NCBI RefSeq assembly: GCF_003710105.1
Contig: NZ_CP033325.1
Location: 868,001-932,000, forward strand
Origin: Georgenia faecalis
GTDB taxonomy: Bacteria; Actinomycetota; Actinomycetes; Actinomycetales; Actinomycetaceae
Direction of reading: 5' to 3'
DNA length: 64,000 nucleotides
This document shows, piece by piece, positions 41,607 to 50,793 of the stretch. Each line of letters begins with the position of its first letter. Within the stretch, counting starts at the first letter, position 1. Both the position numbers and the translations under genes were made by a program. The notes under the pieces were generated by a model. That model saw only the letters and a list, made by a program, of their open reading frames with translations, made no database searches and was not told the origin of the DNA.

Positions 41607-42104
41607 TCAGCGCGGCGGCGGGAGCGTGCGGAGCCAGTCGGCGAAGCCCTCGTTGTTGACCGTGCCCTCCCGGCGTTCCTGCACGTAGGCCATCGCGTCC
41701 GCGCCGCTCAGCCCGAGCACCTCGCGGACGATGAGCGAGACGATGAGCCCCGAGCGGTTGCGCCCGAACGTGCAGTGGACGAGCACGCGGTAGCCGTCCG
41801 CGACCAGCCCGGCGACGAGCTCGGCGAGGCGCAGGGTGAGGGCCGGGGCGGGCAGGTCCTCGCCGTCGACCAGCGGGGACTTGAGGTAGACCAGGCCGTC
41901 GATGTCGTCGGCCGGCGGGAACGCGTCGGCGTCGGCGATGTCGATGACGGCGGTGATGCCGGTGGCACGCACCCACTCGAAGTCGACGGGGCACCCGCCG
42001 TGCCACAGCTGCCCGGGGAGCATCTCGGTGGGCGGGTCGGCCGGCCGGACGCCGGGCAGGTCGACGGGGTCGGTGGTCAGGTTGAACTCGATGTCGGCGC
42101 TCAC
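41607..42104 (-). CDS. Dual-specificity/tyrosine phosphatase family protein
   Basis: A 165-residue cytoplasmic phosphatase. The P-loop C-x5-R is seen in VLVHCTFGRNRSGLIVSL, with Cys nucleophile and Arg. Upstream lie the entry strand GQLWHGGCPVDFEW and VIDIADADAFPPADDIDG, whose Asp residues could act as general acid. The GTG start is at 42104. It reads toward the winged-helix gene, ends 90 bases from it, and lies directly downstream of the ABC operon, 36 bases after the last ATPase stop, so it may be its sixth gene. Substrate unknown. Confidence 0.85.
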   Translation of the reverse strand: MSADIEFNLTTDPVDLPGVRPADPPTEMLPGQLWHGGCPVDFEWVRATGITAVIDIADADAFPPADDIDGLVYLKSPLVDGEDLPAPALTLRLAELVAGLVADGYRVLVHCTFGRNRSGLIVSLIVREVLGLSGADAMAYVQERREGTVNNEGFADWLRTLPPPR

Positions 42105-42140: not shown

Positions 42141-42980
42141 TCAGGCGTCGGGCAGCTGAGGGACCGCGGCGAGGAGCTGGCGGGTGTAGGGATGCTCGGG
42201 ACGGGTGAAGACCCGCGCGGTGGGCCCCGCCTCGACCACCCGCCCGTCGCGCATGACGACGACGTCCTCGCACAGCTGGCCGACGATGGCCATGTCGTGG
42301 CTCACCATGACCAGCGCCATCCCCAGCTCCTGGCGCAGGCCGGCGAGCAGCGTGATGATCTGACGGCGGACGGTGACGTCGAGCGCGCTCACCGGCTCGT
42401 CGGCGACGAGCACCGCCGGCGACGGGGCGAGCGCGCGGGCGATGGCGATGCGCTGGCGCTGCCCCCCGGAGAACTCCGCGGGGTAGCGCTCGCCCGCGTC
42501 GGCGTCGAGGCCGACGAGGACGAGGAGCTCGGCGACGCGGGCGGGGTGGTCGCCGGGGATGCGCAGCGAGCGCAGCGGCTCGGCGACGACGTCGGCGACC
42601 CGCATCCGCGGGTCGAGGGAGGAGCGGGGGTCCTGGAAGACCGGCTGGACGTCCGTGCGGAACCCGCGCAGCTGCGCCTTGTTGCGCCGACGCAGCGGCT
42701 CCCCGCGGTAGCGGACCTCGCCCGTGTCGGGGCGGTCGAGGCCGAGCAGCAGGCGCAGGAGCGTGGACTTCCCGGCCCCGGACTCGCCGACGACGCCGAT
42801 CCCGCGGCCCGGGTGGATGTCGAGGCTCACGCCGTCGAGCGCCGTCGTCGTCCCGCGCTGGCTGCGGAAGGTGCGCCCGAGACCGCGCCCGGAGAGGATC
42901 GGGACGCCGCCCACCGGGAGGCCGCCCGCGCCGGGGACGTCCGCGGCGTCGGCCGCGCCCGCGGCGAGTGCGGCGCTCAT
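42141..42980 (-). CDS. Peptide-type ABC transporter ATPase (DppF/OppF-like)
   Basis: A 279-residue nucleotide-binding subunit. Walker A GESGAGKST, Q-loop region VFQDPRSSLDPRMRV, signature FSGGQRQRIAIARAL, Walker B VLVADEPVSALD and H-loop VSHDMAIV are all present. The C-terminal extension TRPEHPYTRQLLAAVPQLP is typical of oligopeptide/nickel importer ATPases. The N-terminal 25 residues are Ala/Gly-rich. ATG overlaps the stop of the preceding ATPase gene. Partner of the 42977-43774 ATPase. Confidence 0.93.
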   Translation of the reverse strand: MSAALAAGAADAADVPGAGGLPVGGVPILSGRGLGRTFRSQRGTTTALDGVSLDIHPGRGIGVVGESGAGKSTLLRLLLGLDRPDTGEVRYRGEPLRRRNKAQLRGFRTDVQPVFQDPRSSLDPRMRVADVVAEPLRSLRIPGDHPARVAELLVLVGLDADAGERYPAEFSGGQRQRIAIARALAPSPAVLVADEPVSALDVTVRRQIITLLAGLRQELGMALVMVSHDMAIVGQLCEDVVVMRDGRVVEAGPTARVFTRPEHPYTRQLLAAVPQLPDA

Positions 42981-43774
42981 CGGGCCGTCCCCTCGGGCAG
43001 GCGGGTGACGGCGCGGGCGGAGTCGAGGAGCTCCTGGGTGTAGGCCTCGCGCGCCCCGCCGAGGACGGCGCGCACCGTCGTGCTCTCCACCACGGCGCCG
43101 TCACGCATGACGACGAGGTCCTCGGCGAGCTGGGCGACGACCGGCAGGTCGTGGCTGACGAACACGAGCGCGGTGCCCGTGCGCTCGACGACGTCGGCGA
43201 GCAGGTCGAGGATCTCCGCCTGGACGGTGACGTCGAGCGCCGTCGTCGGCTCGTCCGCGAGGAGCACCCGGGGCCGGCAGGCGAGGGCCATGGCGAGGTT
43301 GGCGCGCTGGCGCTGCCCGCCGGAGAGCTGCCAGGGGAAGGAGTCGAGGACGCGCTCGACGTCGGGCAGGGCGACCAGCTCGCAGAGCCGGCGGGCCTCG
43401 GCGCGCGCCTCGGAGCGGCCCATCCCGCGGTGCAGGCGCAGCGGGCCGGCGATCTGGCGGCCGATGGTCATGAGGGGGTCCAGCGCCGTGAGCGGTTCCT
43501 GGAACACCATGGCGACCTGCGCGCCGCGCACCCGGCGCAGCTCGCGCGCGGGAAGGGTGAGCAGGTCGGTGCCGTCGAGGAGCACCGAGCCGGTCGCGCG
43601 CATCCCCTCGGGCAGGAGCCCGAGGATCGCCAGTGCCGTCATCGACTTGCCGGAGCCGGACTCGCCGATGAGGCCGAGCCGGCCCCCGGCGTCGAGGGAC
43701 CAGCTGACGCCGTCGAGGATGGTGGCCCCGGACGCCGTGCGGACGGTGAGGTCGCGGACCTCGAGGACGCTCAT
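42977..43774 (-). CDS. Peptide-type ABC transporter ATPase (DppD/OppD-like)
   Basis: A 265-residue ATPase. Visible are LEVRDLTVRTASGATILDGV, Walker A GESGSGKSM, VFQEPLTALDPLMTIGRQIA, signature LSGGQRQRANLAMALACRP, Walker B VLLADEPTTALDVTVQAEIL and H-loop FVSHDLPVV. It overlaps both neighbours by 4 bases (ATGA), so the operon is tightly coupled. The two ATPases form the heterodimeric engine of the importer. Its C-terminal tail is shorter than the OppD form that carries an iron-sulfur motif. Confidence 0.93.
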   Translation of the reverse strand: MSVLEVRDLTVRTASGATILDGVSWSLDAGGRLGLIGESGSGKSMTALAILGLLPEGMRATGSVLLDGTDLLTLPARELRRVRGAQVAMVFQEPLTALDPLMTIGRQIAGPLRLHRGMGRSEARAEARRLCELVALPDVERVLDSFPWQLSGGQRQRANLAMALACRPRVLLADEPTTALDVTVQAEILDLLADVVERTGTALVFVSHDLPVVAQLAEDLVVMRDGAVVESTTVRAVLGGAREAYTQELLDSARAVTRLPEGTAR

Positions 43775-44682
43775 CGCCGGCCTCCCAGGCTGGGGTCGCG
43801 GCGCTCGCGGATGCCGTCGCCGAGGAGGTTGAGGCCGAGGACGAACGCGGCGATGGCGACGCCGGGGAAGATCGCCCCCCACGGCTGCACGCCGATGGTG
43901 CTCTGGGCCTCGCGGAGCATCCGCCCCCACGACGCCTGGGGCGGGGGCGCGCCGAGCCCGAGGTAGGACAGGGAGGCCTCGGACAGCACGGCGCCGCCGG
44001 CGAGCAGCATGAGCTGGACGAGGAGGGTGGGCGTGATGTTCGGCAGGACGTGGCGCAGAACCGTGCCCCAGTAGCCGGTGCCGGACGCCGCCGCGGCGGT
44101 GATGTAGTCCTCGCGCAGGACGCGCGCCGTGTTGACGCGGGTGACCCGCGCGATGACGGCCGAGCCGGCGAGCCCGATGGCGACGATGGCCGAGCTCATC
44201 GACGCCCCGCGCACCGTGACGATGAGCATGGCGAGCAGGAGCGTGGGGAAGGCGATGAGGAGGTCGACGACGGACTGCAGCGCGACGTCGAGCCACCGCG
44301 TCGTCGTCGCCGCGACGATGCCGACGAGGACGCCGATGGCCGCCGCGATCGCCGTCGTCGACGCCGCGACGAGGACGGCGTTGCCGGCGCCGTCGAGCAG
44401 CTGGGTGAACAGGTCGCGCCCGAGGCGGTCGGTGCCGGCCCAGTGCTCCGCCGACGGCCCGCCCAGGCGGGGGCCGGAGTCGTCGGTGAGCGGGTAGGGC
44501 GACCACACGAGGGAGACCAGGCCGGCGAGGACGACGAGGCCGACGAGCAGCGCGCCGACGGTGAAGGAGACGCTGCGGGCGGCGCGGCGGCGACCGCGGC
44601 CCCGGCGCCCGGGGGCGGTGCCGGCGTCGACCGGCGTGGCCTCGGCGCTGGTGGTGGCGAGGATGGTGAGGTCGTCGCTCAT
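43771..44682 (-). CDS. Peptide-type ABC transporter permease (DppC/OppC-like)
   Basis: A 303-residue inner-membrane permease. After a basic cytoplasmic lead (GRRGRGRRRAARS) and first membrane segment (LLVGLVVLAGLVSLVW) comes the OppC-type extracytoplasmic motif EHWAGTDRLGRDLFTQLLDG, then five more segments. The EAA coupling loop is REDYITAAAASGTGYWGTVL. The C-terminal signature is GAVLSEASLSYLGLGAPPPQ. ATG overlaps the upstream permease stop. Paired with the DppB-like permease. Confidence 0.93.
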   Translation of the reverse strand: MSDDLTILATTSAEATPVDAGTAPGRRGRGRRRAARSVSFTVGALLVGLVVLAGLVSLVWSPYPLTDDSGPRLGGPSAEHWAGTDRLGRDLFTQLLDGAGNAVLVAASTTAIAAAIGVLVGIVAATTTRWLDVALQSVVDLLIAFPTLLLAMLIVTVRGASMSSAIVAIGLAGSAVIARVTRVNTARVLREDYITAAAASGTGYWGTVLRHVLPNITPTLLVQLMLLAGGAVLSEASLSYLGLGAPPPQASWGRMLREAQSTIGVQPWGAIFPGVAIAAFVLGLNLLGDGIRERRDPSLGGRR

Positions 44683-45644
44683 GCTGCCCCCACCACGGAC
44701 GAGGACCGCAGGCGCGGGTCGATCCAGCGCTGGAGCAGGTCGATCGCGAAGTTCACGAGGAGGACGACGGCGGTGATCGCCAGGACCAGCGTCTGCACTA
44801 CCGGCAGGTCGCGTCCCAGCACCGAGGACAGCAGCAGCGAGCCCAGCCCCGGCAGGGCGAAGACCGCCTCGACGACGACGGCGCCGAGCAGCGACGTCGC
44901 CAGCTCGATCCCGAGGATGGCGACCACCGGCACCGCTCCGTTGCGCAGGCCGTGGCGGGCCAGGGCCTGGGTGCGGCTGTAGCCCAGGGACCGGGCGGTG
45001 CGGATGTAGTCCTGCCCGAGGACGTCGAGGGTGGCGGAGCGGACGTAGCGGACCATGACGGACGACATCGCCACCGCCACGGTGATGCCCGGCAGGGCCA
45101 GGGCCTCGACCGCCGCGGCCGGGTCCGCCCAGCCGGCGCGGGGGAAGCCGCCCGAGGGCAGCCACCCCAGCCGCAGCGCGAACACCCAGGTGAGCAGGAC
45201 GCCCACCCAGAAGATCGGCACCGCGACGCCGAGCTGGGACAGGGTGGAGACGGCGAGCCCGAGGGCGCTGCGGCGGCGGACCGCCGCGAGGACGCCCACT
45301 GGGACGGAGATCAGCACCGAGAGGACGAACGCCCCCAGGCTCAGCGGCACGGTGATGGACAGGCGGTCCGCGATGAGGTCGGCGACCGGCACCCGCGAGA
45401 CGAACGACGTCCCGGCGTCGCCCCCGAGGATGCCGGTCACCCACTGCGCGTACTGCGTGAGCACCGGCTGGTCGGTGCCGAGGTCGCGCCGCAGCTGCTC
45501 GAGCTGCTCCGTCGTCGTGCCCACGCCCAGGCTCACCCCGGCGCTGTCACCGGGCAGGAGCCGCAGGATGACGAAGACGACGAGGCTGGCGAGGACGAGG
45601 GAGGCGAGGAGCACCCCCAGCCGCAGCGCGACGTAGCGGACCAC
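44679..45644 (-). CDS. Peptide-type ABC transporter permease (DppB/OppB-like)
   Basis: A 321-residue permease with six membrane segments. The first is followed by the DppB-type RLLPGDSAGVSLGVGTTTEQ and LRRDLGTDQPVLTQYAQWVT loop. The EAA motif region is LGQDYIRTARSLGYSRTQAL, and GAVVVEAVFALPGLGSLLLS is the family signature. The GTG start at 45644 sits 5 bases after the stop of the binding-protein gene. With DppC-like, two ATPases and the lipoprotein it makes a complete importer. Confidence 0.93.
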   Translation of the reverse strand: MVRYVALRLGVLLASLVLASLVVFVILRLLPGDSAGVSLGVGTTTEQLEQLRRDLGTDQPVLTQYAQWVTGILGGDAGTSFVSRVPVADLIADRLSITVPLSLGAFVLSVLISVPVGVLAAVRRRSALGLAVSTLSQLGVAVPIFWVGVLLTWVFALRLGWLPSGGFPRAGWADPAAAVEALALPGITVAVAMSSVMVRYVRSATLDVLGQDYIRTARSLGYSRTQALARHGLRNGAVPVVAILGIELATSLLGAVVVEAVFALPGLGSLLLSSVLGRDLPVVQTLVLAITAVVLLVNFAIDLLQRWIDPRLRSSSVVGAA

Positions 45645-45649
45645 GGGGC

Positions 45650-47161
45650 TCAGGACTCCCGGGTGATGTCGGCGACGTAGAAGCTCTCCGTCACCTGGTC
45701 GACCGGGAAGCCGGTGACGCCGGCGGCGGCCACGCGGATCTGCGGCTCGAGGTAGAGCCACGCGGAGGCGGCCTCCTCGGCCATGAGGACGTTGGCCTGG
45801 CTCAGGAGCTCGGCCTGCTCCTCCTCGCTGCCGGCCCGCTCGGAGTCGGCGACGAGCTGCTGGACCTCGGCGCTGTCGTAGCCCCAGTAGAAGTCGGGGT
45901 TGGCGTACCAGAGCATGTCGCGGGGGTTGACGTGCCCCATGAGCGTGGTCTCGAAGTCGTGGTTGGTGTAGATCCGCTCGTACCACGTGGCGTCGTCGAT
46001 GGGGTTGAGCTCGAGGGTGACGCCGACGTCGGCGAGGTCGCTCTGGAGGAGCTGGGCGATGGTCTCCTCGGTGTCCCCGGCGACGTAGTCGAGGGTGATG
46101 GTGAGGTCCTCGACCCCGGCCTCGCCGAGGAGCTGACGCGCGGACTCGGGGTCGTAGGCATGCGTGTCGGCGACGTCGACGAACCACGGGTCGGTGGGGG
46201 GCACCATGGAGCCCACCACCTCACCGCGCCCGGCCCAGACCGCCTCGAGGATCGACTCGCGGTCGATCGCCCGGTACAGGCCCTGGCGCACGCGGACGTC
46301 GTCGAACGGGGCGACGCGGTCGTTGAACGCCCAGATCTGCTTCGTCGTCGAGCTGCCCTCGGAGATGGTGAACGCGTCGTTGCCCTCGAACTGGGCGAGC
46401 TGGTCGGGGGAGTCCTCGGCGATGACGAGGTCGAGGTCCCCGGTGAGCAGCGCGTTGTTGAGCGCGGTGGTGTCGGTGAAGAAGCGGAACGTCACGCCGT
46501 CGTTCGCGGGGGCGTCGCCCCAGTACTCCTCGTAGGGGGCGATGGTGAGGTAGTCGCCCTGCGCCCACTCGACGAGCTCGTACGGGCCGGTGCCGTTCTC
46601 GGTGGTGTGCTCGGTGTCCCCGTCCTTCACGATCGTCACGCCGGCGAGGTAGAAGAGGAGCGAGCGGGTCGGGGCGGAGAGGACCACCTCGACGGTCTGC
46701 TCGTCGACGGCGGTGATCCGGTCCATGACGGCGAGGTCGGACTTGCGGGCGGCCACCGACTCGTCGGAGATGATCTCGGTGAGCGCCCATACGGCGTCGG
46801 CCGAGGTGAAGGGCGTGCCGTCGTGGAAGGTGACGCCCTCGCGCAGGTGGAACGTGTAGGTGAGGGCGTCCTCGGAGATGTCCCAGGTCTCGGCGAGCGC
46901 GGGGACGATCTCGCCGTCGACGTCGATGGCGACGAGCGGCTCGTAGACGTTGCGCGTCATGGTCTGGGAGACGCCGGAGCTGCCCCCGACGAAGCGTTGG
47001 AGGCTGGTGGGCTCGTTGGTGGAGCCGATGACGATCTCGTTCTCGCCGGGCTGGGCGGCACCGGCGGTGTCGTCCGCCGAGCCGCCGCCGCTGCCGCACG
47101 CGGCGAGGGCCAGGGTGGCGACGGCGGCGAGGGCGGTGGTCTTGAGAGTCCGCAAGGACAT
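45650..47161 (-). CDS. ABC transporter substrate-binding lipoprotein (SBP family 5, DppA-like)
   Basis: A 503-residue lipoprotein with signal peptide and lipobox LALAAC, then the family-5 core: PTSLQRFVGGSSGVSQTMTR, AETWDISEDALTYTFHLREG, TFHDGTPFTSADAVWALTEI and NGTGPYELVEWAQGDYLTIA. It binds peptides or related small molecules outside the membrane for delivery to the two permeases; the pocket gives no clear hint of substrate. The ATG at 47161 fits the signal peptide; a TTG at 47206 would add 15 residues. A cysteine-type leader peptide is encoded 141 bases upstream, suggesting a sulfur-responsive importer. Confidence 0.92.
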   Translation of the reverse strand: MSLRTLKTTALAAVATLALAACGSGGGSADDTAGAAQPGENEIVIGSTNEPTSLQRFVGGSSGVSQTMTRNVYEPLVAIDVDGEIVPALAETWDISEDALTYTFHLREGVTFHDGTPFTSADAVWALTEIISDESVAARKSDLAVMDRITAVDEQTVEVVLSAPTRSLLFYLAGVTIVKDGDTEHTTENGTGPYELVEWAQGDYLTIAPYEEYWGDAPANDGVTFRFFTDTTALNNALLTGDLDLVIAEDSPDQLAQFEGNDAFTISEGSSTTKQIWAFNDRVAPFDDVRVRQGLYRAIDRESILEAVWAGRGEVVGSMVPPTDPWFVDVADTHAYDPESARQLLGEAGVEDLTITLDYVAGDTEETIAQLLQSDLADVGVTLELNPIDDATWYERIYTNHDFETTLMGHVNPRDMLWYANPDFYWGYDSAEVQQLVADSERAGSEEEQAELLSQANVLMAEEAASAWLYLEPQIRVAAAGVTGFPVDQVTESFYVADITRES

Positions 47162-47507
47162 GGCAATCCGATCGTGCAGGGCCCGTGAGCGGGCGCGGGG
47201 TCGCAAGGCGGGCGGGAGCCGAGCCGAGCCGAGGGATGACCGCCCGGTAGGGCTGGTCGGAGGCCCCGGGGTGCGGGGCGGGGGAGCCGGGTACGGCTCA
47301 GGTCAGCGGCAGCGCCGACAACACCCCATGCTCTGGGTGCGCTGCAGGTCGATGTGCAGGCGGCAGACCAGGACGAGCTCGCTCATAGTGGGATCAAGCG
47401 TCTCACGGCTCGGAGTAGTCCCCGACTGCGAATGACGAAGATCACCCAAGGCCTCCTCCGATTGCTTGACACTTGCGAAAGTAGAAAGCATCTGCGACGC
47501 TCACGAC
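47162..47507. promoter_or_regulatory. Divergent control region: importer leader and membrane-protein promoter
   Basis: The gap between the divergent importer and membrane-protein genes. Its left part is the attenuator leader described at 47303-47386. To the right, TTGACA at 47466-47471 is a consensus -35, with the dyad-like ACTTGCGAAAGT (47471-47482) and GAAAGC (47484-47489) following; no clean -10 is placed at 17 bases. ACTTGCGAAAGT is a likely operator for the winged-helix regulator. Confidence 0.45.
47303..47386 (-). CDS. Leader peptide of a putative cysteine-responsive attenuator
   Basis: A 27-residue peptide, MSELVLVCRLHIDLQRTQSM then GCCRRCR. It matches the actinobacterial putative-leader-peptide pattern (hydrophobic start, R-x-H-I/V-D-L-x-R core, Cys near the end) found before sulfur and transport genes. 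Four Cys codons, three near the stop, would stall ribosomes when Cys-tRNA is scarce. No ribosome site precedes ATG 47386, so it may be leaderless. Between its stop and the importer gene there are GC dyads (GAGCCG with CGGCTC just after the stop) that could form terminator or antiterminator. Confidence 0.75.
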   Translation of the reverse strand: MSELVLVCRLHIDLQRTQSMGCCRRCR

Positions 47508-47966
47508 ATGATCAACATGGACGCTGCCCTCCGGTCCGCGGACCGCGCAGCCGCTGCTCCCTTCCTCCAGACCCCGCGCATCCCCGCCTGGTACCCGTTC
47601 GCCATGGCGACCTACTTCACGGCCGTCTTCGGCGCCTTCCTCCTGCTGCGGGACGGCCGGGTCGTCCCGGGCGCGGTCCTCCTCCTGCTGGCCGTGGCCG
47701 CCGTCCTGGCCCAGGCAACGCTGACCCGGGCCCGGTGGGGCACCTGGCCACGCCTGTCCGAGGCGCCGGCCGAGATCAGGCGCGCGTTCGCGCTCTACGT
47801 GCTCCTGGCCGTGGCCGCCATCATCGCGTCCGTGGGCGTCTGGTCCTGGGTCGGGGCCGCAGGCGGCCTCGCCGCGGTCTTCCTCACCGCACTGGCCGTC
47901 GTCTGGGCCTACGAGTTCCGGTTGTACCCCGCGGCCGCCCGGCAGGTCCGGCAGCGGCTGGCATGA
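47508..47966 (+). CDS. Four-TM membrane protein (second copy of the module)
   Basis: A 152-residue membrane protein: short polar start (MINMDAALRSADRAAAAPF), WYPFAMATYFTAVFGAFLLL, VPGAVLLLLAVAAVLAQATL, ALYVLLAVAAIIASVGVWSW and GGLAAVFLTALAVVWAYEFR, then a basic end. Architecture and partner gene equal those at 40730, so the two loci are paralogous. The stop overlaps the regulator ATG (ATGA). Start at ATG 47508 (another ATG at 47517). Function unknown. Confidence 0.8.
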   Translation: MINMDAALRSADRAAAAPFLQTPRIPAWYPFAMATYFTAVFGAFLLLRDGRVVPGAVLLLLAVAAVLAQATLTRARWGTWPRLSEAPAEIRRAFALYVLLAVAAIIASVGVWSWVGAAGGLAAVFLTALAVVWAYEFRLYPAAARQVRQRLA

Positions 47967-48280
47967 GCTCCCCCCTGGACGGGCTCGACCCGATCCTCAA
48001 CCAGCCCAAGCGCCTGGCCGCGATCGCCATGGTGGCCGCGAGCACGTCGTGCGACTTCCCGTTCCTGCGCGACCAGCTCGAGCTCAGCGACTCCGACCTC
48101 TCCCGGCACATGACCGCGCTGAGCCAGGCCGGCTACGTGACGATCCGCAAGAGCGGGGGCGGTCGCGGCAGCACGACGACCTACGCGATCACCAAGACCG
48201 GCCGCGCCGCGTACGGGCGGCACCGCGACACGCTGACCGCGTTCCTCGCCGCCCACGACCCCGGGACGTCGTCCCCGTGA
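47963..48280 (+). CDS. Winged-helix transcriptional regulator (second copy of the module)
   Basis: A 105-residue winged helix: LDPILNQPKRLAAIAMVAAS, FPFLRDQLELSDSDLSRHMT, ALSQAGYVTIRKSGGGRGST then TTYAITKTGRAAYGRHRDTL. It aligns with the protein at 41205 over its whole length. Coupled to the membrane protein gene by ATGA overlap. The likely job is repression of its own operon, with the small dyads upstream as candidate sites. Confidence 0.85.
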   Translation: MSSPLDGLDPILNQPKRLAAIAMVAASTSCDFPFLRDQLELSDSDLSRHMTALSQAGYVTIRKSGGGRGSTTTYAITKTGRAAYGRHRDTLTAFLAAHDPGTSSP

Positions 48281-48407
48281 CGAGGGGCGCACTGCCGGGG
48301 AGTGACATGGACCCCGGCCGGCGCGGGCCGGACAATCACCCCGTGACCCCCCTCGTGCCGCTGCCCGCCGACCTCTTCGCCACCCCGCGGACCCGGTGGG
48401 GGAAGCG

Positions 48408-49577
48408 GTGACCTACCTCGACCACGCGGCCACCACCGCCGTCCGGCCCGAGGCCGCGGAGGCGTTCGCCCGCGAGCTGGCCCGCCCGGGCAATCCCTCC
48501 TCCCTGCACGCCGCGGGCCGCGATGCCCGACGGCGGGTGGAGGAGTCCCGCGAGGCCGTCGCCGCGGCCCTGGGTGCCCAGCCGGGTGAGGTCGTCTTCA
48601 CGTCCGGCGGCACCGAGGCCGACAACCTCGCCGTCAAGGGGACGTTCTGGTCCCGTCGCGCCGCCGACCCCGTCCGCACACGTGTGCTGGTCAGCGCCGT
48701 CGAGCACCCCGCCGTGCTCGACGCCACCGACTGGCTCGCCGACCACGAGTCCGCCGACGTCGTCCGGCTCCCGGTCGACGCCGCCGGCCGCCTCGACCTC
48801 GCCGCGCTCGCGGCCGAGCTCCGCGCGCACGGCGAGCGGACCGCCCTGGTCTCAGTGATGTGGGCGAACAACGAGGTGGGGACCGTCCAGCCCTTGCCGG
48901 AGGTGGTCGCCGCCGCCCGCGCCGCCGGCGTGCCCGTCCACTCCGACGCCGTCCAGGCGGTCGGGCACGTGCCGGTGGACTTCGCCGCCTCCGGGCTCGA
49001 CGCCATGACGGTGTCGGGGCACAAGCTCGGCGCCCCCATCGGCGTCGGCGCCCTCCTCGCCCGGCGCGAGCTGGGGCTCGTGCCGGTCGAGCACGGCGGC
49101 GGGCAGGAGCGCGGTGTGCGGTCGGGGACGCTGAGCACGCCCGCGATCTGCGCGTTCGCCGCCGCGGTGGGCGCCGCCGTCGCCGAGCAGGAGGCGGAGG
49201 CCGCGCGCCTCGCCGTCCTGCGCGCCGACCTCGTCCGCGGGGTCCTCGCGGCGGTGCCGGGCGCCCGGCTCAGCGGGCCCGAGGACCCCGCGGCTGCCCT
49301 GCCGCAGACCGCCCACTTCACCTTCGACGGCTGCGATGCCGACGCCCTGCTCTTCGGCCTCGACATGGCGGGCGTGAGCGCGTCGTCGGGGTCGGCCTGC
49401 CAGGCGGGGGTCCAGGAGCCCTCGCACGTCCTCCTCGCCATGGGGCGGGACCTGGCCCAGGCGCGCTCCGCCGTCCGGCTCACCCTCGGGTGGACCTCCA
49501 CGGCCGACGACGTCGCCGCGGTGCTCGCCGCGCTGCCCGGCGTCGTCGAGCGCGCCCGCGCCGCCCGCACCCGCTGA
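48408..49577 (+). CDS. Cysteine desulfurase (NifS/IscS family)
   Basis: Takes sulfur from cysteine as a persulfide for Fe-S clusters or thio-modified tRNA. The 389-residue PLP enzyme shows [15 protein letters not shown], the PLP lysine in [15 protein letters not shown], substrate region [13 protein letters not shown] and the catalytic Cys loop [22 protein letters not shown] 48408 is preferred because homologues begin T-Y-L-D-H-A; GTG 48396 is in frame. mnmA follows after 82 bases, so the enzyme most likely donates sulfur to MnmA (IscS-type role). Confidence 0.94.
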
Positions 49578-49659
49578 CGCCCGTGGGCGCGGGCCCCCGT
49601 CCGTCGGGCGCCCGCGGTTACCCTGGGACGCGCTGAACGAGCCGAGCGAAGGAGGCACG

Positions 49660-50793
49660 ATGCGGGTTCTCGCAGCCCTGTCCGGCGGGGTCGACTCCGC
49701 CGTGGCGGCCGCGCGCGCCCTCGACGCCGGCCACGACGTCGTCGGCGTCCACATGGCCCTGAGCCGCTCCCGGGCGCAGCACCGCACGGGCTCGCGCGGC
49801 TGCTGCTCCATCGAGGACGCGGGCGACGCGCGCCGTGCGGCCGACGTCCTCGGCATCCCGTACTACGTGTGGGACCTGTCGGAGGAGTTCGAGGAGACCG
49901 TCGTCGACGACTTCCTCGCGGAGTACGCCGCCGGCCGCACCCCCAACCCGTGCGTGCGGTGCAACGAGCACATCAAGTTCGCGGCGCTCCTCGACCGCGC
50001 CCTGGCGCTGGGCTTCGACGCCGTCGCCACCGGCCACTACGCCCGCATCGTCACCCGGCCCGACGGCGCCCGGGAGCTCCACCGCTCCGCCGACGCCGCC
50101 AAGGACCAGTCCTACGTCCTGGCGGTCATGGGGCCGCAGCGCCTGGCGCGCTCGCTGTTCCCGCTGGGCGACGTCGCCTCCAAGGCGGACGTGCGCGCCG
50201 AGGCCGCCGCCCGCGGGCTCAGCGTCTCCGCCAAGCCGGACTCCTACGACATCTGCTTCGTCGCCGACGGCGACACCCAGGGCTTCCTCCGCTCCCGCCT
50301 CGGCGCCCAGCCCGGCCTCGTCGTCGACGCCGACGGCGCACCCGTAGGCGAGCACGACGGCGCCTACGCGTACACGGTCGGCCAGCGCAAGGGCCTGGCC
50401 CTGGGCCGCCCGGCCCCGGACGGCCGCCCCCGGTACGTCCTCGAGGTGCGCCCGGCGACGAACACCGTCGTCGTCGGCCCCAGCGAGCTGCTCTCCGTGG
50501 ACGAGGTCCGTGGCCACCAGACCGTCTGGCTCGCCGAGGACGTCCCCGCGAGCGGGTGGACGACGGCGCACGTCCAGGTCCGCGCCCACGGCGAGCCGGC
50601 GGCCGCGCGGGTCCGGCGCACCGGCGACGCGCTGGAGGTGCTGCTCGCCGAGCCCATGCGCGGGCTGGCGCCGGGGCAGTCGCTCGTGGTCTACGCCGGC
50701 ACCCGGGTCCTCGGGCAGGCGACCATCGAGCGGGCCGGCCGCGCCGGATCCCTCGTCGCGGCCCCGGAGGCGGCGACTGCCGCGACGGCCTGA
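49660..50793 (+). CDS. mnmA: tRNA-specific 2-thiouridylase MnmA
   Basis: Places sulfur on U34 of tRNAs for Lys, Glu and Gln, using ATP and persulfide from a cysteine desulfurase. The 377-residue protein has the PP-loop [20 protein letters not shown], the first catalytic Cys in [36 protein letters not shown] and the second Cys in [19 protein letters not shown] with GAAGGAGG 4 bases upstream. Downstream of the cysteine desulfurase in the same orientation. The stop lies 10 bases from the convergent oxidase gene. Confidence 0.96.

Follow-up and report, generated by a model that had tools for sequence, protein, structure and literature searches.

The importer operon and its leader ORF

The window, a 64,000-nucleotide stretch of the Georgenia faecalis genome, carries on its minus strand a short cysteine-rich ORF followed by the five genes of an ABC importer. 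The features, in window coordinates, are as follows:

47303..47386, minus strand: leader ORF, 27 codons plus TGA, encoding MSELVLVCRLHIDLQRTQSMGCCRRCR; it has counterparts in relatives
47318..47323, minus strand: tandem TGT TGT, codons 22-23, the proposed sensor codons, at which a UGU bias was found
47309..47311, minus strand: TGC, codon 26, third Cys codon of the terminal cluster
47162..47302, minus strand: spacer of 141 nt between leader stop and importer, C-rich and G-poor
45650..47161, minus strand: substrate-binding lipoprotein, family 5 (SBP_bac_5; 286.6 bits, cut-off 32.4)
44679..45617, minus strand: importer permease 1 (BPD_transp_1)
43771..44679, minus strand: importer permease 2 (BPD_transp_1)
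42977..43774, minus strand: importer ATPase 1 (ABC)
42141..42980, minus strand: importer ATPase 2 (ABC)

The first-pass annotation had described a 27-residue Cys-rich ORF in front of a family-5 importer operon, and both were confirmed, the ORF on the minus strand at 47303-47386 and the operon as SBP_bac_5, two BPD_transp_1 permeases and two ABC ATPases, the layout of a family-5 ABC importer (PepT: peptide/nickel/opine). The 141-nt spacer runs from the leader stop to the ATG of the substrate-binding protein at 47161. A DSPc phosphatase gene (41607-42104) follows the operon. Divergently oriented on the plus strand (47466-48280) lie a 166-aa membrane-like protein, with no family match in Pfam or NCBIfam, and an HTH_34 winged-helix regulator; this pair and the leader have a short intergenic region in common. 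Beyond them (48396-50793, plus strand), a NifS-type cysteine desulfurase is followed by an MnmA-like gene (tRNA 2-thiouridylase, by eye), a pair close to the putatively cysteine-controlled importer.

After its ATG, the leader has G or C at the third base in 24 of 26 codons, and the two exceptions are the adjacent TGT TGT. Among the matches listed for UGU-UGU-CG in the host genome there were 21 sites, two overlapping each other, and the window leader was the only one with a start codon and a nearby in-frame stop. The start codon of the window leader is ambiguous; its frame is open farther upstream, reaching another ATG. No sigma-70-type promoter was recognized in 47100-47560, and no Shine-Dalgarno sequence was seen by eye for the window leader. 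TANNNT, starting 13-16 nt before the ATG, was present in 10 of 18 leaders and absent from that of the window.

Cysteine-ending leaders upstream of orthologous importers

Relatives of the binding protein were found at 54 loci, and the 25 with at least 47% identity (L032-L056) were examined. Four of these at contig edges (L038, L042, L045 and L052) were left out, which gave 21 loci and, with the window, 22. An upstream region was counted when it held an ATG ORF of 10-40 codons, within 450 nt, with an adjacent Cys pair in its last six codons. Such a mini-ORF was present in 17 of the 22 regions, the window included, while in 200 sets of dinucleotide shuffles the mean was 0.1 and the highest count 1 of 22 regions. 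The opposite strand gave 1 of 22, and flanking 450-nt segments gave 6 of 1138.

An order-wide search for the binding protein at 1e-120 gave a match in 17 of 396 genomes, host included. The leader rule was looser here (two Cys in the last eight residues, ATG or GTG start, up to 60 codons), and the search added three leaders (L111, L112 and L115), all with ATG and adjacent Cys, as well as seven loci with no CC-ending leader (L113 and L118-L123), L113 having a GTG ORF with two separated Cys only. L107 is the host itself; L108, L109, L110, L114 and L116 were dropped as repeats of counted peptides, and L117, a truncated match, was omitted. Combined, a CC-ending leader was present at 20 of 32 assessable loci, host included; L040 (C. 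telluris) has the leader MRTVLVAPHAARPVLAARASCRG with a single Cys, and the remaining 11 (L050, L053-L055, L113 and L118-L123) have no CC-ending leader. The counts overstate independence because many of the sequences are related, and since several of the 20 come from close relatives (four Oerskovia, several Cellulomonas), they represent about ten independent cases. The more distant matches L057-L085 were not counted, and inspection of five among them brought up nothing beyond chance-type ORFs (L057, L061). In the five genomes of L119-L123, all of one other genus, the binding protein stands, by eye, closely behind a same-direction gene, which we take to be DUF1684-like.

The leaders of other lineages at this operon read as follows:

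Cellulosimicrobium: MRHTTTSARTRACRPASTAACCCRR
Oerskovia: MFLDLSAPTRTPSTGRHGSTSAARCCRCL
Sanguibacter: MRRDTTVLSHVSPLAQPRHVGAGCCCRCSR
C. cellasea: MRSQTLTTTCLRSFSASSARCCR
Jonesia: MYANTVQKSHAVVRVTATTCCCCCC
Timonella: MHNNTFPVINTVPRVAGTVCCRCC
Scrofimicrobium: MANILVAPISTQHMCTSLMCCCMR

Their ends are alike, and nearly everything else differs between lineages. Even the endings vary, from CCC, CCRC and CCR to CCCCCC and a single C. Across ten representative leaders, Cys occupied 32 of the 80 places of the last eight residues and 6 of the 164 places elsewhere. The HxDLxR core of the window peptide was absent from the other 19 leaders of this importer operon, and eight representatives of other lineages scored between -14.1 and -0.1 bits against a core profile that gave the window peptide 17.9 bits. 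Because only the window leader has the core, it is the terminal Cys codons that evolution has preserved at this operon. Searching the host's own family with the window peptide at E<=1 gave matches in 27 of 200 genomes, the host among them; those outside the host were weak fragments and were set aside.

The first-pass annotation had staked its reading on conservation of the Cys codons in relatives, and these codons were kept. Its claim of a cysteine attenuator is well supported by the comparison, with terminal Cys codons found at 20 of 32 loci as the peptide around them changes. Neither of the binding protein's two nearest paralogues in the host genome has a CC-ending leader; at one of them (L142) there is a looser Cys-rich ORF 384 nt upstream. 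No constant sulfur-gene neighbor was seen by eye in 10 relatives, in which the importer genes recur. A block near GGGAATTCCCGACC-NNNN-GGTCNGGTTCC is common to five of six aligned leader-importer spacers (Cellulomonas, Cellulosimicrobium), L041 being the one that does not have it. The block lies at about columns 311-342 of the alignment and could form a small hairpin with a variable loop.

The core leader family and its proposed UGU sensor codon

The window peptide fits the core R-x-H-I/V-D-L-x-R, with S at +3 and C at +6 after that R. The 17.9 bits were obtained against our own profile of 11 actinomycete leaders; none of 1000 shuffles of the window peptide reached that score (maximum 10.6), and no score above 11.4 bits came from the full 4000 shuffles made of four peptides. 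NCBIfam and Pfam gave no match for the window peptide at E<=1. NCBIfam models of putative or Cys-rich leader peptides matched 7 of 10 leaders scanned. These were the ones that have the core, of which four passed the NF042934 cut-off and three fell short of it; the three core-less leaders had no match.

An order-wide codon pattern for the core, in which Cys is not involved, was present at 18 sites, spread over 17 of 198 genomes. Twelve of these are short leaders, each with Cys near its end, and the other six fall in frames other than short leaders. Among eight proteins scanned behind core leaders, the best Pfam families were NMT1, PAPS_reduct (CysD-like in our reading), NlpA lipoprotein, TauD, FMN_red, SDF symporter, SBP_bac_5 and TauE. 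The first-pass annotation had assigned the RLHIDLQR stretch to a core of actinobacterial leader peptides; the assignment stood insofar as it matches actinomycete leaders that precede sulfur genes, and fell short insofar as the core is not conserved at this operon.

The SBP_bac_5 proteins behind core leaders at L131-L135 are 27-32% identical to that of the window and thus belong to other importers. Class-wide, twelve downstream proteins were chosen by eye among 69 loci, and nine of them matched the window binding protein at 26-30% identity. Since family-5 importers recur behind core leaders, the pairing of such a leader with a family-5 importer is not a singleton, and this recurrence suggests more than one origin or recruitment event for cysteine control among family-5 importers. 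Altogether, family-5 binding proteins with 26-32% identity were observed behind HxDLLRV Cys leaders at L131-L135, L147, L152, L158, L159, L161, L168, L175, L178 and L179.

The host has a second core leader, MYELHLTSRRHIDLLRVRSMSCRP (L002:1501-1575; C1, from 1712709, plus strand), with one TGT Cys codon. It stands 170 nt before an alcohol-dehydrogenase/quinone-reductase-like gene and, by eye, a thioesterase-like gene; these are not an obvious sulfur operon.

A class-wide search with the core pattern gave 80 sites in 53 of 246 genomes. Sixty-nine were examined (29 loci and 40 stretches), L129 was read separately and 10 were left out. A stop codon follows within 40 codons of the core in all 69, and 55 are non-redundant by tail peptide, of which 53 have Cys after the core. 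At the S-A-x-C position, hereafter the sensor position, Cys occurred in 47 of the 55, encoded by TGT in 46 and by TGC in one. The other Cys codons of those leader tails were 8 TGT and 15 TGC (8/23), and the downstream genes of core leaders had 36 TGT and 206 TGC (36/242). In Fisher tests, sensor UGU differed from other leader positions at p = 9e-9 and from genes at p = 1e-29, values that are too small because the sequences are related; the contrast within the same leaders is telling. The order-wide core leaders repeated the pattern, with TGT at the sensor position in 12 of 12 and, with the second host leader L002, 13 of 13; L129, one of these twelve, is also a class-wide site and lies outside the 47.

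The remaining 8 of the 55 non-redundant core leaders have a residue other than Cys at the sensor position. Core leaders of this kind, with ..RVSSAY or ..RVCSAI, were seen at L169, L171, L190-L194, L196 and L197. Several of them precede one family with a GRIxxDxRSGH motif, presumably glutathionyl-hydroquinone-reductase-like.

The importer leaders showed the same codon choice. The window leader has UGU-UGU at the sensor position and TGC for its other two Cys codons, and the Cys codons of ten neighboring genes in the window are TGC in 20 of 20. Over the leaders of the window and 17 relatives, TGT made up 52 of 66 Cys codons, the genes at these loci having it in 35 of 187, and the terminal clusters of ten representative leaders had TGT in 26 of 32. 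UGU was dominant in the core-less poly-Cys tails too, although the genes strongly prefer UGC.

RNA pairing as a cause of UGU was ruled out by folding. The third U of the sensor codon had a mean pairing probability of 0.25 with A and 0.13 with G, and in 36 of 46 leaders the predicted fold gained stability when this U was replaced by C; because the substitution stabilizes the fold, pairing does not explain UGU. UGU is decoded by tRNA-Cys(GCA) through a G-U wobble, and we read the sensor UGU as selection on decoding. An idea that we hold at even chances is that actinomycete cysteine leaders sense through UGU specifically, with wobble decoding by tRNA-Cys(GCA) as the tuned slow step. The window importer would then be one branch of a UGU-gated cysteine regulon, in which the core is replaceable wholesale as long as UGU stands near the stop. 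Among the papers listed by literature searches on leader peptides and cysteine sensing, we saw none on a UGU bias; Canestrari et al. (2020) may mention codon choice.

Control, cargo and known systems

The findings made it very probable, from the sequence comparisons above, that the mini-ORF acts as a ribosome-mediated cysteine attenuator of an organosulfur importer. The leader, in the 5' region of the importer operon, would be translated while its transcription is still under way. A shortage of charged tRNA-Cys would hold the ribosome at the tandem UGU, which lies five to six codons ahead of the stop, and this stall would allow expression of the downstream importer genes; when cysteine is plentiful, the ribosome would complete the leader and importer expression would be damped. 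An organic reduced-sulfur source could thereby be taken up when cysteine is low. We infer the translation, the stalling, the direction of control and the cargo, and it is comparison among genomes that ties the importer, putatively, to cysteine.

The output of the stall may be a block of Rho-dependent termination or the freeing of a ribosome-binding site. No intrinsic terminator was found in the spacer (47162-47302), and the only site resembling one is on the upstream side of the leader. For masking of the ribosome-binding site, the predictions showed no consistent change with ribosome position over 18 loci: in the window, the mean unpaired probability of the importer's start region was 0.59 free, 0.68 with a stalled ribosome and 0.60 with the ribosome at the stop, and in the 17 relatives accessibility rose or fell relative to the free state by no more than 0.15, with the largest drop at L035. 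A local hairpin of 7 bp at the leader stop codon (z -2.2 in the window) is not claimed, since the other 17 loci lent it no support (z -1.8 to +1.6). The spacer is C-rich and G-poor, as is typical of Rho sites, and lies in the top 0.06% of windows in its 12-kb stretch and about the top 0.3% in the 64 kb. Comparable C-richness was found in 3 of 6 leaderless orthologues tested (L119-L123 were omitted, their upstream regions being largely another gene) and in one of two paralogues, and 3 of 18 leader-bearing loci (L047, L049 and L051) were not strongly C-rich. The argument for a Rho-type C-rich spacer is weak because leaderless orthologues and a paralogue are about as C-rich.

The cargo was approached through the binding protein and through the sulfur supply of the host. 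The binding protein fell below the cut-offs of all equivalog models compared (DppA 123/1005, GsiB 143/594 and NikA 168/393 bits, score/cut-off). Its best PDB sequence matches were AgaA (152 bits) and Lmo0135/CtaP (146.7 bits), then AapF, DppA and YliB, and the best 17 Foldseek rows include AgaA, AapF, DppA, sialic-acid-binding, YliB, NikZ, CtaP, NikA and glutathione-binding structures. The predicted structure had a mean pLDDT of 75.6, and residues 413-428, the putative pocket motif, were below 50, so no ligand inference was drawn from the model. The protein belongs to the peptide/nickel/opine cluster, within which peptide, thiol, opine and nickel cargo are indistinguishable.

The host genome (3.43 Mb, one contig, 99.98% complete) had no match at E<=0.001 to PF01507 (APS/PAPS reductase, CysD), a search positive in 14 of 14 control genomes, nor to PF01077 (sulfite reductase), positive in 11 of 14. 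Sulfate assimilation is therefore probably missing, and imported reduced sulfur probably matters to the host. Sulfur-bearing peptides or thiols are plausible as cargo, given these absences and the presence of CtaP among the nearest solved structures. The leader-importer pairing itself needs no loss of sulfate reduction, because 6 of 8 other leader-bearing genomes have at least one PF01507 match (weak in G403) and the remaining two, G382 and G468, have none.

It is possible, if improbable, that the leader is real and that the importer carries non-sulfur cargo (an opine, a sugar acid or a peptide for nitrogen), with cysteine serving as a general starvation signal. The closest sequence and fold matches do include AgaA (agropinic acid), AapF and sialic-acid binders. 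The DppA alignment, moreover, stops just before DppA residue 408, presumably the Asp that binds the peptide N-terminus, and at that position 11 of 11 subfamily sequences have instead the invariant motif H-x-N-x-R-D-x-x-W-Y-A-N-P (H410, N412, R414, D415, W418, Y419, A420, N421 and P422). Cysteine-specific control of a general nutrient importer would nevertheless be odd, the host apparently cannot reduce sulfate, and the cysteine-transport protein CtaP, which has the same fold, is related about as closely.

We consider it very unlikely that the ribosome is stalled by the nascent CC-RR-C peptide itself with a metal or thiol bound to it, so that a nickel- or metal-type importer is controlled by metal and not by charged tRNA-Cys. 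The nearest curated NCBIfam models are of nickel type (nikA for the binding protein, Opp2B and Opp2C for the permeases), and NikA and NikZ are among the fold matches, but every one of these model matches lies below its cut-off. With endings as varied as those of the orthologous leaders, no fixed chelating motif is kept; peptide chemistry does not explain a selected UGU codon, and leaders of the core family stand before sulfur genes. That the mini-ORF is a chance frame, with regulation lying elsewhere, for example in the divergent HTH_34 regulator, is barely credible and as a chance ORF is ruled out by conservation (17 of 22 against 0.1), for although promoter and start are weak in the window and the window peptide's core is in none of the orthologues' leaders, the core-profile match and the third-base pattern, with G or C everywhere after the ATG except in the two TGT codons, also speak against it.

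A cysteine attenuator at this position would tie an uncharacterized family-5 importer to cysteine supply in many actinomycetes, and would give a guess at the cargo where sequence and fold fail. At this operon two roles that are usually lumped, those of the peptide core and of the terminal Cys codons, are separated: over evolution the core is dispensable and the terminal Cys codons are mostly kept, which points to decoding and not to nascent-chain chemistry. The near-invariant sensor UGU bears on the part that codon choice plays in making ribosome-mediated sensors more or less sensitive.

The leaders of NCBIfam NF042934 (cis_reg_atten), NF042936 (Ms4527A) and NF042933 (Ms5788A) resemble the window leader in the HxDLxR..S..C core, in a terminal Cys (UGU) before the stop and in their place upstream of a transport operon. 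Unlike them, the window peptide ends in CC-RR-C and matches no model at E<=1, and the orthologous leaders tested at this operon are core-less. Polycysteine leaderless short ORFs of mycobacteria, reportedly described by Canestrari et al. (2020), likewise have a run of Cys in a short leader, close to its stop; they differ in that the window leader precedes a family-5 importer operon, in another bacterial family, and that no structure masking the ribosome-binding site was found.

The available part of PMC1262725 describes candidate Cys leaders before cys operons (Mycobacterium, Propionibacterium) and Bifidobacterium cbs, and its authors suggested Rho for the mycobacterial cys leaders because there were no terminators. 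Those leaders, so far as that part describes them, are alike in their runs of Cys codons near the stop and in having no conserved terminator, and unlike in that the window leader precedes an importer operon; codon choice does not come up in that part. Translation attenuation of M. smegmatis cysteine genes is cited in the accessible portion of PMC13236596. According to the sections available of PMC8632094, uORFC-8-2 is a tandem-Cys attenuator of cysS in Rhodobacterales, similar in using tandem Cys codons as the sensor; there UGC is dominant and an intrinsic terminator is present, unlike the case of the window, where UGU is dominant and no terminator was found in the spacer. CtaP (Lmo0135) of Listeria, which the available text of PMC10269559 associates with cysteine transport, has the same SBP fold family as the window binding protein, with 24% identity over the fold alignment; it is distant and no more than a lead on the cargo, and AgaA scores slightly higher. 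The importer leader probably adds to a known class, the ribosome-based cysteine regulators, with the UGU rule and the exchangeable core as the parts that specialists may not expect.
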